From positions 1-36,199 of the forward strand of contig CABXTU010000011.1 of the NCBI GenBank assembly GCA_902515205.1: 36,199 bases of DNA, written 5' to 3'. Made by a program: the position numbers and the translations under genes. Position 1 is the stretch's first letter. The number at the start of each line of letters is the position of its first letter. The notes beneath the pieces were generated by a model. It was not told the DNA's origin, made no database searches, and worked only from the letters and a program-made list of their open reading frames with translations. This document shows, in pieces, positions 17,588 to 23,466 of this stretch. This stretch comes from an uncultured Pelagibacteraceae bacterium (GTDB lineage Bacteria; Pseudomonadota; Alphaproteobacteria; Pelagibacterales; Pelagibacteraceae).

Positions 17588-18257
17588 TTTAATTCAAATT
17601 TCAAAATTAGATAAATCCTTTAAAAATTTAAAAAAATTAAGTGTACTCAAAAAAGTTTCTTACAAATTCAAAAAAGGAAAAATTTACTCTATAATGGGAC
17701 CTTCAGGGTCTGGTAAATCCACTTTACTTAATCTTCTATCATTGATTGATAGACCTTCATCAGGATCAATTATAATTGAAGATAAAAATGTTGATTTTAA
17801 TGATCTAGAAAATAACGACTTATTAAGAGCAAATAAAATTGGCATTATTTATCAGCAAGATAATCTTCTCTCTGATTTTACTGCTTTAGAAAACGTATAT
17901 ATGGCAAGTTTGGCAATTGGTAATAATAAAGAAATTTCCCTTAATAAGGCAAAATCTTTATTAAGAAAGGTTGGACTAATAAGTAGATTAAATCACTTTC
18001 CATCTCAACTTTCAGGTGGGGAAAAACAACGTGTCTCTATTGCAAGAGCTTTAATTAACAATCCTCAAATTATTTTAGCAGATGAACCAACAGGAAGTTT
18101 GGATCTATTGACTGCAAAAGGAATTTTTGAACTTCTTAAAAAACAAATAAATCCTGACAGATTGATAATATTTGCAACTCATAATAGATTTTTTGCAAAT
18201 AAGTCAGATTGCTTGTTGGAAATAGTAAATGGTAATATAAAATCCATTAATGGATGA
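17580..18257 (+). CDS. lolD: Lipoprotein-releasing ABC transporter ATP-binding protein
   Basis: This is the ATPase subunit partnering the preceding permease. The 225-residue ABC domain has Walker A GPSGSGKST (40-48), a Q-loop YQQDN, signature LSGGEKQRVSIARAL, Walker B IILADEPTGSLD and the switch histidine in FATHN. The two-gene lolC-lolD arrangement, 8-base overlap and the MacB-like ATPase type support the Lol assignment over other small exporters. It also overlaps dnaE by 8 bases. Confidence 0.93.
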   Translation: MSSLIQISKLDKSFKNLKKLSVLKKVSYKFKKGKIYSIMGPSGSGKSTLLNLLSLIDRPSSGSIIIEDKNVDFNDLENNDLLRANKIGIIYQQDNLLSDFTALENVYMASLAIGNNKEISLNKAKSLLRKVGLISRLNHFPSQLSGGEKQRVSIARALINNPQIILADEPTGSLDLLTAKGIFELLKKQINPDRLIIFATHNRFFANKSDCLLEIVNGNIKSING

Positions 18258-21200
18258 GCCAAATAAACAAAATTTTAATCATTTAAAAATTCATTCACAA
18301 TATTCAATTTGTGAAGGTGCAATTAAGATTGACGACTTAAGAGAATATTCTAAAGAAAATAAAATAAAAGCATTAGCTTTATGCGACTCTGAAAATCTAT
18401 GTGGTGCTTTAGAATTTGCTGAAAAATTATCTAAAATTGGTACCCAACCCGTTATTGGTAGCCAGATAAATTTTAAAATGAATGATACAATAGGTTTACT
18501 GCCTTTATTTGCTTTAAATGAAATTGGTTACAAAAGATTAATTGAATTGTCATCTTTGTCATATCTTAAAAATGATAATCTTTCTAATCCTCATTTAATG
18601 ATTGAAGAATTATTAAATAAAACTGAGGGTTTAGCTATATTTTCAGGAACTATAAACGGACTTTTTGGTAAATTATTTAATAACGGTAAGTTTAATGAAA
18701 TACAAGAAATATACACAAAATTAAAATTAAAATATGAATCTCGTTTTTATATAGAGATTCAAAGACATGGTGATCAAAATGAAAATATATTTGAAAAATT
18801 TAATTTATCAAATTCTCAAAATTTAGAAATTCCTTTGATAGCAACTAACGAAGTTTTTTATTTAGACAAAAATATGCATGAGGCACATGATGCTTTAATA
18901 TGTATTAAGAACAAGACGTATGTAAGTGAAAAAAATAGGATTAAATTCACAAACCAACACTATTTGAAAGATAGTTCAGAAATGGCAAAACTCTTTGCTG
19001 ATTTACCTGAAGCTTTAGAAAATAATTATATCTTTCCCTACCGTTGCAGTTTTAGACCACTTTCTTCAAAACCTATCTTACCAAATATTAGTTCTAATGA
19101 GGGAGAAAATGCTGATGAAATATTAAAAAGATATTCTACTAATGGTTTAAAAGAAAAATTTGAAAAAATTTTTAAGATTAAAAATGATGATACCCATTCA
19201 AATGACAAATATTTGCAATATAAAGATAGATTAAATCACGAATTAGATATCATCATTGAGATGAAATATGCGAGCTATTTTTTGATTGTATCAGATTATA
19301 TTAAATGGGCCAAAGAAAATGATATACCAGTTGGTCCAGGAAGAGGATCTGGTGCTGGATCCCTAGTTGCTTGGTGTCTTTCAATAACAGATGTTGATCC
19401 AATAAAATTTAATTTGATATTTGAAAGATTTTTGAATCCTGATCGTATTTCTATGCCTGACTTTGATATAGATTTTTGTGAAGAAAAAAGAGATTTAGTT
19501 TTTAAATATCTAACAAAAAAATACAAAGATAGTGTTGCTCATATAATTACCTTTGGAAAATTAAAAGCGAGAATGGTTATACGAGATGTTGGTAGAGTTT
19601 TAGGTTTATCTTATGGTTTTGTTGATAGTATTTCAAAGATGATACCTTTCGATCCTTCAAGACCTCAAAATTTAACAGAATGTATTGCGGGAGAGCCAAG
19701 GTTACAAAAACTTATAAATGAAGATAAGAGGGTAAAAAAACTTACAGATCTTTCTTTAAAACTTGAGGGGTTAAATAGAAACGTTGCAACGCATGCTGCG
19801 GGTGTAGTTATAGCTGATAAAAAACTAACTGAAGTTGTTCCGTTATATAAAGATATTTCTGCAAATTTATTATTACCATCTACACAATTTGATATGTATT
19901 CAGCTGAAAATGCTGGATTAATTAAATTTGATTTCCTGGGATTAAAAACCCTAACAGTAATTAACAATACTCAAAAATTGATAAGAAAAAAAAATAAGGA
20001 TTTTAATATAGAAAATATTAATTTTGATGATCAAAAAGTATTTCAATTATTATCCTCAGGTAAAACTGTCGGTTTATTTCAAATTGAGAGTGCAGGTATG
20101 AGAGAAGCCTTAATTCAGATGAAACCAAATCATATAGAGGATATCATCGCTTTAGTTGCTTTATATAGACCTGGACCAATGAGCAATATACCTACTTATA
20201 ATGATTGCAAACATGGTAAACAAGAACCAGATTATTTACACCCTTTATTAAAAGATATTTTAATGCCTACATATGGGGTGATTATTTATCAGGAACAAGT
20301 TATGCAAATAGCTCAAAAATTGTCAGGATTTACAGCTGGTCAAGCTGATATTTTACGTAGAGCAATGGGTAAAAAAAAAAGGGCTGAATTAGAAAGACAA
20401 AAACAAAGTTTTATAGCTGGTGCAGTAAATAATGGAATTAGTAAAGATGTGGCTGCAAGTATTTTTTTAAAAATTGAACCATTTGCAGAATATGGTTTTA
20501 ATAAGAGTCATGCAGCAGCATATGCAATTATTTCTTATCAAACTGCATATTTAAAAACTTATTATCCCAATGAATTTATTGCTGCTTCCATGACTATGGA
20601 TATCTCTAATCAAAATAAATTAAGTGAATTTTATGAAGAACTTAAAAGACTAAATGTGGAAATTATTAGACCAGATATAAATCAATGTTTTGCTGATTTT
20701 AGAGCAAGTAATGACAAATTTTATTATGCATTAGGTGGTATTAAAGCAGTGGGTTTTGAAGCTATATCTAATATTGTTGATGAAAGAGTTAATAATGGAA
20801 AATTCAAGTCCCTAACTGATTTTTTAAATAGAGTAAACCCAAAAGATATAAACAAACTACAATTAGAAGGTTTAGTTAAAGCAGGAGCATTTGATAAACT
20901 TAATACAAATAGACAATCTTTATTTAACTCAATACCAAATTTTATAACAAAATCAAAAAATATTTTTGAGAATAAGTCTGTAAATCAAATAGATCTGTTT
21001 GGAGAAAGTGAAAGTCAAGAAAATGAAATAGTATCTAACATTGAAGATTGGAAATTTGAAGAAAGGTTATCTAAAGAGTTTGAGGCCGTAGGTTTCTTTA
21101 TTTCTGATCATCCATTAAACCAATACAAAGAAGTTTACGATGATTATAATATTAATGATTATCAAACTTTTTTGAATGAGGAAATTTACAAAGAGTCAAA

Positions 21201-21666
21201 TATAGCTGCAACTTTATTAAAAATTCAAGAAAGAAAAACAGCAAAAGGAAATTCATACGCAGTTTTAAAGTTAACTGATCTAACTAGTGTATTTGAATTA
21301 TTTATTTTTTCAGATATCATAGAATTAAATCGTGAAATCTTAAAAGAAGGTAATTCCTTTATTTTAACACTTATTAAATCGATTTCTAACGAAGAAAATA
21401 GATTTAAAAGGATTAATGTTCAAAAAATAGCATCACTCAATGAATTGATAAATAAACCAATTGAGCAGGTAATATTTAACTTAAAATCACTTAAAGAACT
21501 CGATGAAGTTTCAAAATATTTACCTAAAAATGGTGAAACATTAATTAAAATTAAGTTAAGCGACGATAAAAACAATCTTGGATTTCAACTAAAAAATAAG
21601 AGGACTATTGATAGGAAAGTCATAAATTTATTAAGAAATAAGCAAATATCTGCTAAAATAAGTTAA
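18250..21666 (+). CDS. dnaE: DNA polymerase III alpha subunit
   Basis: DnaE is the replicative polymerase (C-family). The 1138-residue protein has an N-terminal PHP domain beginning HLKIHSQYSICEGA. The catalytic palm contains GPGRGSGAGS and PDFDIDF (D404, D406), with the third aspartate at D561 in KFDFLGLKT. Fingers and the beta-binding and OB-fold region follow, with FNKSHAAAYA and ISDHPLNQY among the typical segments. The length is close to the 1160 of E. coli. It ends the first long gene run. The start overlaps the end of lolD by 8 bases. Confidence 0.98.
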   Translation: MDEPNKQNFNHLKIHSQYSICEGAIKIDDLREYSKENKIKALALCDSENLCGALEFAEKLSKIGTQPVIGSQINFKMNDTIGLLPLFALNEIGYKRLIELSSLSYLKNDNLSNPHLMIEELLNKTEGLAIFSGTINGLFGKLFNNGKFNEIQEIYTKLKLKYESRFYIEIQRHGDQNENIFEKFNLSNSQNLEIPLIATNEVFYLDKNMHEAHDALICIKNKTYVSEKNRIKFTNQHYLKDSSEMAKLFADLPEALENNYIFPYRCSFRPLSSKPILPNISSNEGENADEILKRYSTNGLKEKFEKIFKIKNDDTHSNDKYLQYKDRLNHELDIIIEMKYASYFLIVSDYIKWAKENDIPVGPGRGSGAGSLVAWCLSITDVDPIKFNLIFERFLNPDRISMPDFDIDFCEEKRDLVFKYLTKKYKDSVAHIITFGKLKARMVIRDVGRVLGLSYGFVDSISKMIPFDPSRPQNLTECIAGEPRLQKLINEDKRVKKLTDLSLKLEGLNRNVATHAAGVVIADKKLTEVVPLYKDISANLLLPSTQFDMYSAENAGLIKFDFLGLKTLTVINNTQKLIRKKNKDFNIENINFDDQKVFQLLSSGKTVGLFQIESAGMREALIQMKPNHIEDIIALVALYRPGPMSNIPTYNDCKHGKQEPDYLHPLLKDILMPTYGVIIYQEQVMQIAQKLSGFTAGQADILRRAMGKKKRAELERQKQSFIAGAVNNGISKDVAASIFLKIEPFAEYGFNKSHAAAYAIISYQTAYLKTYYPNEFIAASMTMDISNQNKLSEFYEELKRLNVEIIRPDINQCFADFRASNDKFYYALGGIKAVGFEAISNIVDERVNNGKFKSLTDFLNRVNPKDINKLQLEGLVKAGAFDKLNTNRQSLFNSIPNFITKSKNIFENKSVNQIDLFGESESQENEIVSNIEDWKFEERLSKEFEAVGFFISDHPLNQYKEVYDDYNINDYQTFLNEEIYKESNIAATLLKIQERKTAKGNSYAVLKLTDLTSVFELFIFSDIIELNREILKEGNSFILTLIKSISNEENRFKRINVQKIASLNELINKPIEQVIFNLKSLKELDEVSKYLPKNGETLIKIKLSDDKNNLGFQLKNKRTIDRKVINLLRNKQISAKIS

Positions 21667-21693
21667 TTTAAGCTTGTTTATTAAATAAAATTT

Positions 21694-21720
21694 TTGTAAA
21701 TATTCTCAAATTAATAAATA
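21694..21720 (+). promoter_or_regulatory. Possible promoter for the rpsB gene run
   Basis: TTGTAA (21694-21699) and TAAATA (21715-21720) resemble a -35 and -10 pair, with a short 15-base spacer. They lie just upstream of the folded rpsB leader, where a promoter is expected because dnaE ends the previous run. In such AT-rich DNA chance matches are common, so the assignment is weak. Confidence 0.25.
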
Positions 21721-21722
21721 CT

Positions 21723-21794
21723 CACACAGTTGTTGGTTTTATACCTCCGGTCCTTTTTTTGGAAATTACTGTGGTGGATTAACCGGGAAAAAAT
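21723..21794 (+). ncRNA. rpsB leader, predicted pseudoknot cis-regulatory RNA
   Basis: This is the only GC-richer non-coding patch in the window. CACAGT (21725-21730) pairs with ACTGTG (21768-21773) to close a large loop. Within the loop TCCGGT (21746-21751) pairs with ACCGGG (21782-21787), which lies outside that stem just before the rpsB ATG at 21795, giving a pseudoknot of five Watson-Crick pairs plus one G-U. Small helices GGT/ACC (21735-21737 with 21743-21745) and TCC/GGA around T7 could form inside as alternatives. The position over the translation start suggests feedback control by ribosomal protein S2. I recall a comparative study reporting a cis-regulatory motif before rpsB in 'Ca. 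P. ubique'. The match to that motif is inferred. Confidence 0.7.
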
Positions 21795-22613
21795 ATGAAA
21801 ATACCTAACGTTACAATTCAACAGTTATTAGAAGCGGGTGTTCATTTAGGTCACAAGACTTTACGATGGAACCCAAAAATGAAAAAATACATTTTTGGAA
21901 AACGGGACTCTATACATATTATTGACTTGACTCAGACATTAGAGCTCACAAAATCGGCTTTACAAAAGATTCATGAAACTATAGCAAATAATGGAAAGAT
22001 TTTATTTGTCTCTACTAAAAAACAAGCGTCTGAGGCTATTGCTGAAGTGGCAAAAGAAACAGATCAATTCTTTGTAAATTATAGATGGTTAGGAGGAATG
22101 CTAACTAATTGGGGAACAATATCGAACTCTATAAAAAAATTAAAAAAATTGGAAATCGATTTAGTTGCAGAAAATAGAGGTTTTACAAAAAAAGAACTAC
22201 TTAAAATGAGTGTAAAAAAAGATAAACTTCAGAGATCATTAGGAGGAATTTCAGAGATGAAAAAAATTCCTGATTTAGTATTTATTATTGATACAAATTA
22301 TGAGTCTTTAGCAATCCAGGAGTCTGTTAAACTTGGCATTCCAATAATGGCGATTCTCGATAGTAATTCCAATCCTGATGGAATTGATTTTCCTATACCA
22401 GGAAATGATGATGCTAGAAGAGCAATAGATCTTTATTGTAATTTAATTAAAGAAACGATTATTTCAGCTCAAAAAATTGTGACAGATACTTACTCAAGAA
22501 AAAACATTGAAAATAAAGATGTAAACAAAAAGAATGAGAAAACCTTAGAGGAAATTGACAGAGAACAATTAGATAAAAAATTTTCTAAAAAGGAAGAACA
22601 AAAACTTAATTAA
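21795..22613 (+). CDS. rpsB: 30S ribosomal protein S2
   Basis: S2 is a small-subunit protein that binds at the 30S head-body junction late in assembly and, in many bacteria, represses its own operon. The 272-residue protein begins [20 protein letters not shown], with the conserved HRT-like segment [39 protein letters not shown] near residue 95 and [12 protein letters not shown] near residue 200. The last 40 residues form a charged Lys/Glu/Asn-rich tail longer than in E. coli. It is the first gene after the structured leader and is followed by tsf after one base. Confidence 0.98.
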
Positions 22614-22614
22614 A

Positions 22615-23466
22615 ATGAGTGATATAAAAAAAGTTAAAAAATTAAGAGAAGCAACAGGAGCAGGTTTTAAAGATTGTAATCTTGCTATTAAAGAATCTTT
22701 AGGTGATTTGAACAAAGCAGTTGAAATTTTAAGAATAAAAGGAATCTCAAAAGCTTCAAAAAAAATGACCAGAGATGCAAAAGAAGGACTAGTTGCCATT
22801 AGCGGTGATTCTAAAAAAACTTCAATTATTGAAGTAAATTGTGAAACAGATTTTGTTGCTAAAAATGATGACTTTATTAATTTTGTTAAAGAATTAAGTG
22901 AAATTAATAATCAAAATGACTCAAATATAAATGAGTTAAAAAAAGCTAAAATGAAAAATGGTGTCTCCGTTGATGATAATTTGGTAGCTCTTATAGCAAA
23001 AATAGGAGAAAAAATTACAATAGGTAAGACAAAAACAATTTCAAATTCTTCATCTAAAAACTACCAATATTTACATACAGTTGTTAAAGATAATTTGGCA
23101 AAATTAGCAGTTGTAGTCTCTTTGGAAACTAAAGATAATTCTGATATAATTAAAACATTTGGAAAGCAATTATCTATGCATATAGCCGCCTCTAATCCAT
23201 TAGCATTAGAGTCTAATCTTATTGATCAGGCTATTATTGATAAAGAACACGATCTTGTAACAGAAGAACTTAGAAACTCAGGTAAACCAGAAGATATTGC
23301 AAAAAAAATTAGTTTAGGTAAGATGAACAAGTTTAAAGAAGAGAATTCTCTTTTAACACAAGCCTGGGTTATGGAACCAAAAAAAAAGGTTCAGGATGTT
23401 TTAAAAGATCTTGCTATTAATGATCTAAAAATTAAGGAGTTTAGCAGAATTAAGATAGGGGAATAA
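22615..23466 (+). CDS. tsf: Translation elongation factor Ts
   Basis: EF-Ts exchanges GDP for GTP on EF-Tu. The 283-residue protein has the UBA-like N-terminal [16 protein letters not shown], followed by [14 protein letters not shown] (the TDFVAKN contact motif for EF-Tu near residue 80) and the two core subdomains. [11 protein letters not shown] near residue 185 is typical. The length is normal. It lies in the conserved rpsB-tsf pair. frr follows with no gap, where pyrH would usually stand. Confidence 0.98.

Follow-up and report, generated by a model that had tools for sequence, protein, structure and literature searches.

Ribosomal protein S2, with help from S1, represses rpsB-tsf in E. coli according to the text of a review (PMC10931766). 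As the operator there does not include the ribosome binding site, the review regards the mechanism as unclear. It also counts pseudoknots among the targets that S1 binds with high affinity, and describes in-cell probing in enterobacteria in which the S2 sites on 16S rRNA and on rpsB mRNA share an architecture. In the text of their paper, Meyer et al. 2009 (PMC2704228) described an rpsB motif that precedes the gene in 'Ca. P. ubique', in most Alphaproteobacteria and outside that class, extended it to most Gammaproteobacteria, and gave it the paired elements P1, P2 and P3 together with a pseudoknot that they called previously unidentified. The motif is marked by a place immediately before rpsB or tsf, a long P1 that closes a junction, and P2 and P3 that can be very short or missing. 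The same text places the motif of 'Ca. Pelagibacter ubique' HTCC1062 in the gap between dnaE (SAR11_0906) and rpsB (SAR11_0907), with P1, a 3-bp P2, a 2-bp P3 and a pseudoknot between J2-3 and a 3' extension.

We analysed a stretch of 36,199 nucleotides from an uncultured Pelagibacteraceae bacterium (contig CABXTU010000011.1), hereafter the window, in which rpsB lies behind dnaE as in HTCC1062 and stands at the head of the same operon as in E. coli. The gap between dnaE and rpsB is 128 nt long, and the leader fold sits inside it, directly upstream of rpsB, with its 3' end 7 nt from the ATG at 21795. The features are as follows:

18250-21666, dnaE, the gene preceding the rpsB leader gap
21721-21730, forward strand, P1, 5' strand: C-U-C with bulged A21724, then CACAGT; pairs with 21768-21776 (from sequence, Rfam alignment and pair counts)
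21735-21737, forward strand, P2, 5' strand GGT (from sequence and pair counts in 60 SAR11 leaders)
21743-21745, forward strand, P2, 3' strand ACC, the first half of ACCTCC (from sequence and pair counts)
21746-21751, forward strand, pseudoknot, 5' strand TCCGGT (J2-3), its TCC being the second half of ACCTCC
21752-21762, forward strand, P3: CC 21752-21753 with GG 21761-21762, T-rich loop
21768-21776, forward strand, P1, 3' strand ACTGTG-GTG
21782-21787, forward strand, pseudoknot, 3' strand ACCGGG, at -13 to -8 relative to the ATG, the usual Shine-Dalgarno place
21795-22613, forward strand, rpsB, ribosomal protein S2 (TIGR01011, 315 bits, cut-off 76.3)
22615-23466, forward strand, tsf, elongation factor Ts, the next gene after rpsB (TIGR00116, 236.5 bits, cut-off 104.05)

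The core of P1 (CACAGT 21725-21730 with ACTGTG 21768-21773) continues past bulged A21724 to a base closed by C21721/G21776. Positions 21722/21775 form a U-U mismatch in the window and G-U in 51 of the 60 distinct SAR11 leaders taken from the best 80 of 580 loci, and the base reads CTC in the window as against CGC in most aligned leaders of those best 80 loci. The pseudoknot comprises five Watson-Crick pairs and one G-U, and is interlocked with P1. Both helices were thus located and interlocked as the first-pass annotation had described them, down to the 7 bases between ACCGGG and the ATG; its further statement that ACCTCC (21743-21748) lies in the loop held in that the hexamer is inside the P1 loop and failed in that its bases are modelled as paired, in P2 and in the pseudoknot. 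The suggestion that this is the candidate rpsB motif of 'Ca. P. ubique' was borne out by the same gap and the same pseudoknot in the text of Meyer et al. 2009 (PMC2704228), and by the same token the finding is already known, being the motif published in 2009 in another SAR11 genome. We consider it probable that this leader represents the known rpsB motif in its SAR11 form, in which P1 has a conserved bulged A, P2 and P3 are very short and the pseudoknot is present, a judgement made jointly with that on repression by S2.

Upstream of the fold, 72 of 79 SAR11 leaders from the best 80 of 580 loci carried a [TA]GTA[AT] element no more than 60 nt ahead of P1 (region 21667-21720 in the window), 42 of these 72 at a distance of 23-24 nt; of 77 control stretches taken some 400 nt before rpsB in the same best 80, 21 had the element. 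It is possibly a promoter element of rpsB; a simple promoter scan left it unmarked.

The GC-rich pairing had been judged unlikely to be chance, and this held, although the outcome depended on how the pairing was defined. Interlocked 6-bp helix pairs of any kind were common: dinucleotide shuffling of the 72-nt stretch produced them 244 times in 1000, shuffling of the 128-nt gap did so 979 times in 1000, and 219 of 1000 tiles taken elsewhere in the window held one. Once 7 or more G-C pairs were required, they appeared in 6 of 1000 shuffles of the 72 nt, in 5 of 1000 shuffles of the gap and in none of 1000 tiles. Nested minimum-energy folding gave an energy not below that of shuffles (z = 0.36); since the nested program cannot model a pseudoknot it lends the fold no support, and the main evidence is comparative. 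The best nested fold offered an alternative state in which GGTT at P2 pairs with AACC. GGTT was present in 55 of the 60 distinct SAR11 leaders (best 80 of 580 loci). Only 39 of 93 class leaders had it, and this state was rejected.

For the comparison within SAR11 we used the best 80 of 580 loci encoding an S2 relative, found by a scan of genome contigs. One of them (L045) starts within the gene and lacks a leader, and the remaining 79 with the window gave 80 leaders, of which 60 differ from one another in the aligned region; the motif preceded rpsB in all 79 loci with a leader. Across the 60 distinct leaders of this best-80 set, 94.7% of all cells paired. P1 was paired in 98.5% of cells and showed double changes at four of its nine pairs, with variation such as GC/AU/GU (41/18/1), CG/AU/GU/UA (54/2/2/2) and UA/CG (56/4). 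The pseudoknot was paired in 98.1% of cells in these leaders from the best 80 of 580 loci, with a double change at one pair only (GC to UA, in L022 and L046, 2 of 60). P2 (97.2% of cells) and the two pairs of P3 (95.8%) had no double changes, and a trial third P3 pair (columns 42/48) was paired in only 28.1% of cells. In total, double changes in the leaders from these best 80 of 580 loci came to 35 cells, of which P1 held 29, the trial third P3 pair 4 and the pseudoknot 2; shuffles averaged 7.5, and sliding the partners gave 0-5. The number of pair types among the 60 leaders was not above shuffles, 277 of 500 of which reached the observed value. By eye, L077-L080 have a longer, different P2 hairpin (AGGGC/GCCCT or similar). 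As a double change in the SAR11 pseudoknot was seen in only 2 of 60 leaders and at one pair, it is mostly the other members of the class that support this helix.

Of 153 genomes sampled from the Alphaproteobacteria, 152 had S2. Once the window's own genome and G001 had been set aside, the first 120 of the ranked S2 matches made up the class set, which left out the weakest S2 matches. P2 and P3 vary in length across the class, so anchored strands were compared rather than matches to a covariance model. The anchor for the 3' strand was G-N-G-G, a spacer of 2-4 nt and AA, the second A being the first A of the pseudoknot strand; the A of the last pseudoknot pair is therefore fixed by construction, and only that base was required. 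Anchor ties were settled by a preceding G and the distance to the start. The anchor was located in 107 of 120 class leaders, and two of the 13 anchorless ones (L168, L202) had no motif recognisable by eye. The strand read ACCGG in 93 anchored leaders, and CCGGT was present within the preceding 89 nt in 93 of these 93.

Six of the 14 non-standard rows, from five families (L086, L098, L113, L132, L173, L188), carried an exact matching change and no CCGGT, and were scored as double changes that keep the pairing: two have CTGGT/ACCAG, three CCAGT/ACTGG and one CCGAT/ATCGG. The partner strand that each variant requires was present in only 2 to 9 of the 93 other class leaders. Among the other rows, L128 (ACTGG with CCGGT) keeps its pairing through G-U, L143 (TTCGT/ACGAG) pairs with one G-U, L192 (TTCTGGT/ACTAGAA) has one G-U and an equally good competing partner, and L195 has an unmatched five-base strand with a six-base partner by eye; the anchors of L185, L198, L203 and L205 were judged misplaced. 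Matching double changes were also seen by eye in the anchorless L163 and in L185 and L203, the last two with competing partners of similar length, and were left uncounted as a circular reading. P1 extended through the class, with 5' C-N-C-A-C in 90 of 93 leaders and an exact 5-bp inner P1 beside the CA bulge in 71 of 93. An outer P1 pair 2-63 of Watson-Crick type was rejected on the combinations found in those 71 leaders (A/A 25, G/A 16, A/C 15, U/C 10). Compensatory changes, which the first-pass annotation had singled out as the test of both helices, were therefore present, strongly for P1 within SAR11 and for the pseudoknot in 2 of 60 SAR11 leaders and six class leaders. The fold is real, with P1 and the pseudoknot solidly supported by covariation.

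The known Rfam model recognised the leader weakly. RF01815 matched window positions 21721-21803 with 35.2 bits, aligned over model positions 1-132 (E = 1.3e-5, 261-base search), so that the check with an rpsB-leader model suggested in the first-pass annotation gave a match to the leader and a score below the gathering score of 40. The model has 132 positions against 83 nt in the window, and the Rfam structure line has no pseudoknot. At the cut-off, RF01815 was found in 0 of 197 Pelagibacterales genomes and at E<=1 in 112 of 197, with some weak matches lost to filters; 9 of 20 class leaders tested, of the 120, passed the cut-off. There was no match in the E. coli control genome, the matched controls being Caulobacter and, in one search, Methanocaldococcus. 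A structure first reported in SAR11 thus falls below the current Rfam cut-off in all 197 sampled genomes of the order. We also built a SAR11 model, R1, from the SAR11 leader alignment (76 positions, P1 and P3 pairs only). It matched 162 of 197 Pelagibacterales genomes at E<=0.01, which is partly expected of a model built from relatives in the same order, and against 100 of the 120 class leaders the SAR11 covariance model gave 49 matches at E<=0.1, many of them short. When 20 of the 35 R1-negative genomes were tested for S2, 19 had no S2 gene at E<=1e-20; the listed completeness of 15 of the 19 is 90% or more, and we read the absence of S2 as assembly gaps. The R1-negative genome that has S2 (G006) carries a leader with TCCGGT/ACCGGA. 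Viral contigs gave no exact match to one leader pattern.

RF01815 is typed 'Gene; sRNA' in Rfam, a label that would fit a separate small RNA, or else a transcription attenuator. We regard either as highly improbable, as the motif extends to 7 nt before the ATG, no terminator-like site was present within 21600-21850, and the run of seven T in the window's P3 loop is not conserved in most relatives.

The distance between the pseudoknot and the start codon set SAR11 apart from its class. The end of ACCGG (or ACAGG) lay 8 nt from the start codon in 73 of the 80 SAR11 leaders from the best 80 of 580 loci (median 8, range 6-10), compared with a median of 16 nt (range 9-23) in 93 class leaders. GGAG, GAGG or AGGA was present between pseudoknot and start in 2 of 80 SAR11 leaders (best 80 of 580) versus 75 of 93 class leaders, a comparison in which the shorter SAR11 spacer leaves less room for a chance Shine-Dalgarno 4-mer. 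Before genes in general, such 4-mers were found at 1 of 31 in the window (inside-gene control 1 of 31) and at 20 of 156 in G003 (control 15) versus 38 of 143 in G227 (control 13), these counts being noisy because gene starts were taken as the first ATG of long frames. As the 4-mers are near background in SAR11 genes generally, their loss looks like a trait of the lineage rather than of rpsB alone. Its effect at this leader is that the pseudoknot strand is placed where the 30S subunit would dock. Separately, the 3' end of P1 is purine-rich in the class (GGAGG in 49 of 93, GGCGG in 29, AGAGG in 10, about 25 nt before the start), and it is mostly GGTGG in SAR11 as against this Shine-Dalgarno-like stretch in part of the class.

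ACCTCC is identical to the anti-Shine-Dalgarno core of 16S rRNA, and the first-pass annotation had inferred a role from this. Such a role could be to sequester a Shine-Dalgarno sequence or to imitate rRNA for S2, and there are proposals that S2 helps to hold the Shine-Dalgarno duplex (text of the review PMC10931766). ACCTCC was present in 72 and CCTCC in 75 of 80 SAR11 leaders (best 80 of 580 loci), the latter including L078 and L079 with their other P2 hairpin, and conservation inside SAR11 alone would leave room for a role. However, each base already has another function, in the 3' strand of P2 or in the pseudoknot strand. Of the 80 leaders from the best 80 of 580, 8 lack ACCTCC (L063, L065, L066, L069, L077-L080; CCTCC is kept in L065, L078 and L079 and lost in 5 of 80), while the pseudoknot strands remain. 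At the pseudoknot strand of the 93 class leaders with a standard pseudoknot, ACCTCC was found in 0 and CCTCC in 2, and in 78 of 80 SAR11 leaders (best 80 of 580) the spacer from the pseudoknot to the start holds no Shine-Dalgarno 4-mer that could be sequestered. A search for the 16S 3' end gave 0 matches in the window's own genome and eight others, a class comparator included, and was uninformative. The proposed mimicry is therefore very unlikely and the anti-Shine-Dalgarno role is not upheld; most likely the likeness is incidental, produced by the ACC at the end of a short P2 together with the TCC that opens the pseudoknot strand.

The scarcity of Shine-Dalgarno sequences bears on a further explanation, that the leader is a structured translation-initiation element which keeps the start accessible and recruits S1 or the 30S subunit without responding to S2. 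With a 4-mer after the pseudoknot in so few SAR11 leaders (2 of the 80 from the best 80 of 580 loci) and before only 1 of 31 window genes, structure could replace it, and the affinity of S1 for pseudoknots given in the text of PMC10931766 would suit such an element. Yet S2 controls the rpsB leader of E. coli in that text, the text of the 2009 paper (PMC2704228) links that leader to the same motif, and the motif stands before rpsB in every SAR11 locus of the best 80 of 580 that holds a leader (79 of 79). We consider an element of this kind unlikely.

Control of the rpsB leader by S2 is likely in SAR11 by analogy with E. coli. S2 in excess over 30S subunits would bind the pseudoknotted leader, as it does in E. 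coli, and would stabilise it; the stabilised fold would then keep 30S subunits off the start, a steric mode suggested by the pseudoknot 3' strand covering -13 to -8 from the ATG, and the output of S2 and EF-Ts would be lowered together. The E. coli operator leaves out the ribosome binding site (text of PMC10931766), whereas in SAR11 the pseudoknot strand takes up the Shine-Dalgarno place, so a steric block may not be the ancestral mechanism. For the co-repressor S1, rpsA positions 2-516 were matched in G003 and G011 (405.8 and 394.8 bits; curated cut-off 577), and the window's own genome, which is 83% complete, gave partial matches only. The absence of an RF01815 match from the E. coli control lowered our confidence slightly, as it leaves the relationship to the E. 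coli operator dependent on the text of the 2009 paper (PMC2704228). We still hold it to be fairly probable that this is an rpsB-motif leader repressed by S2 through its pseudoknot, the repression being carried over from E. coli.

The compact SAR11 spacing may be unreported; we found no mention of it in the text of Meyer et al. 2009. More tentatively, and with appreciably less confidence than for S2 repression itself, SAR11 may have a compacted variant of the S2 operator, in which the Shine-Dalgarno spacer is lost, the pseudoknot 3' strand lies at the docking place of the ribosome and the leader becomes a direct on/off element for translation. If this is true, folding of a pseudoknot would switch translation in a lineage where Shine-Dalgarno sequences are scarcely used. 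The compact spacing itself poses a concrete question about the mode of repression by S2, with SAR11 as a natural version of the system in which ribosome binding site and operator overlap.
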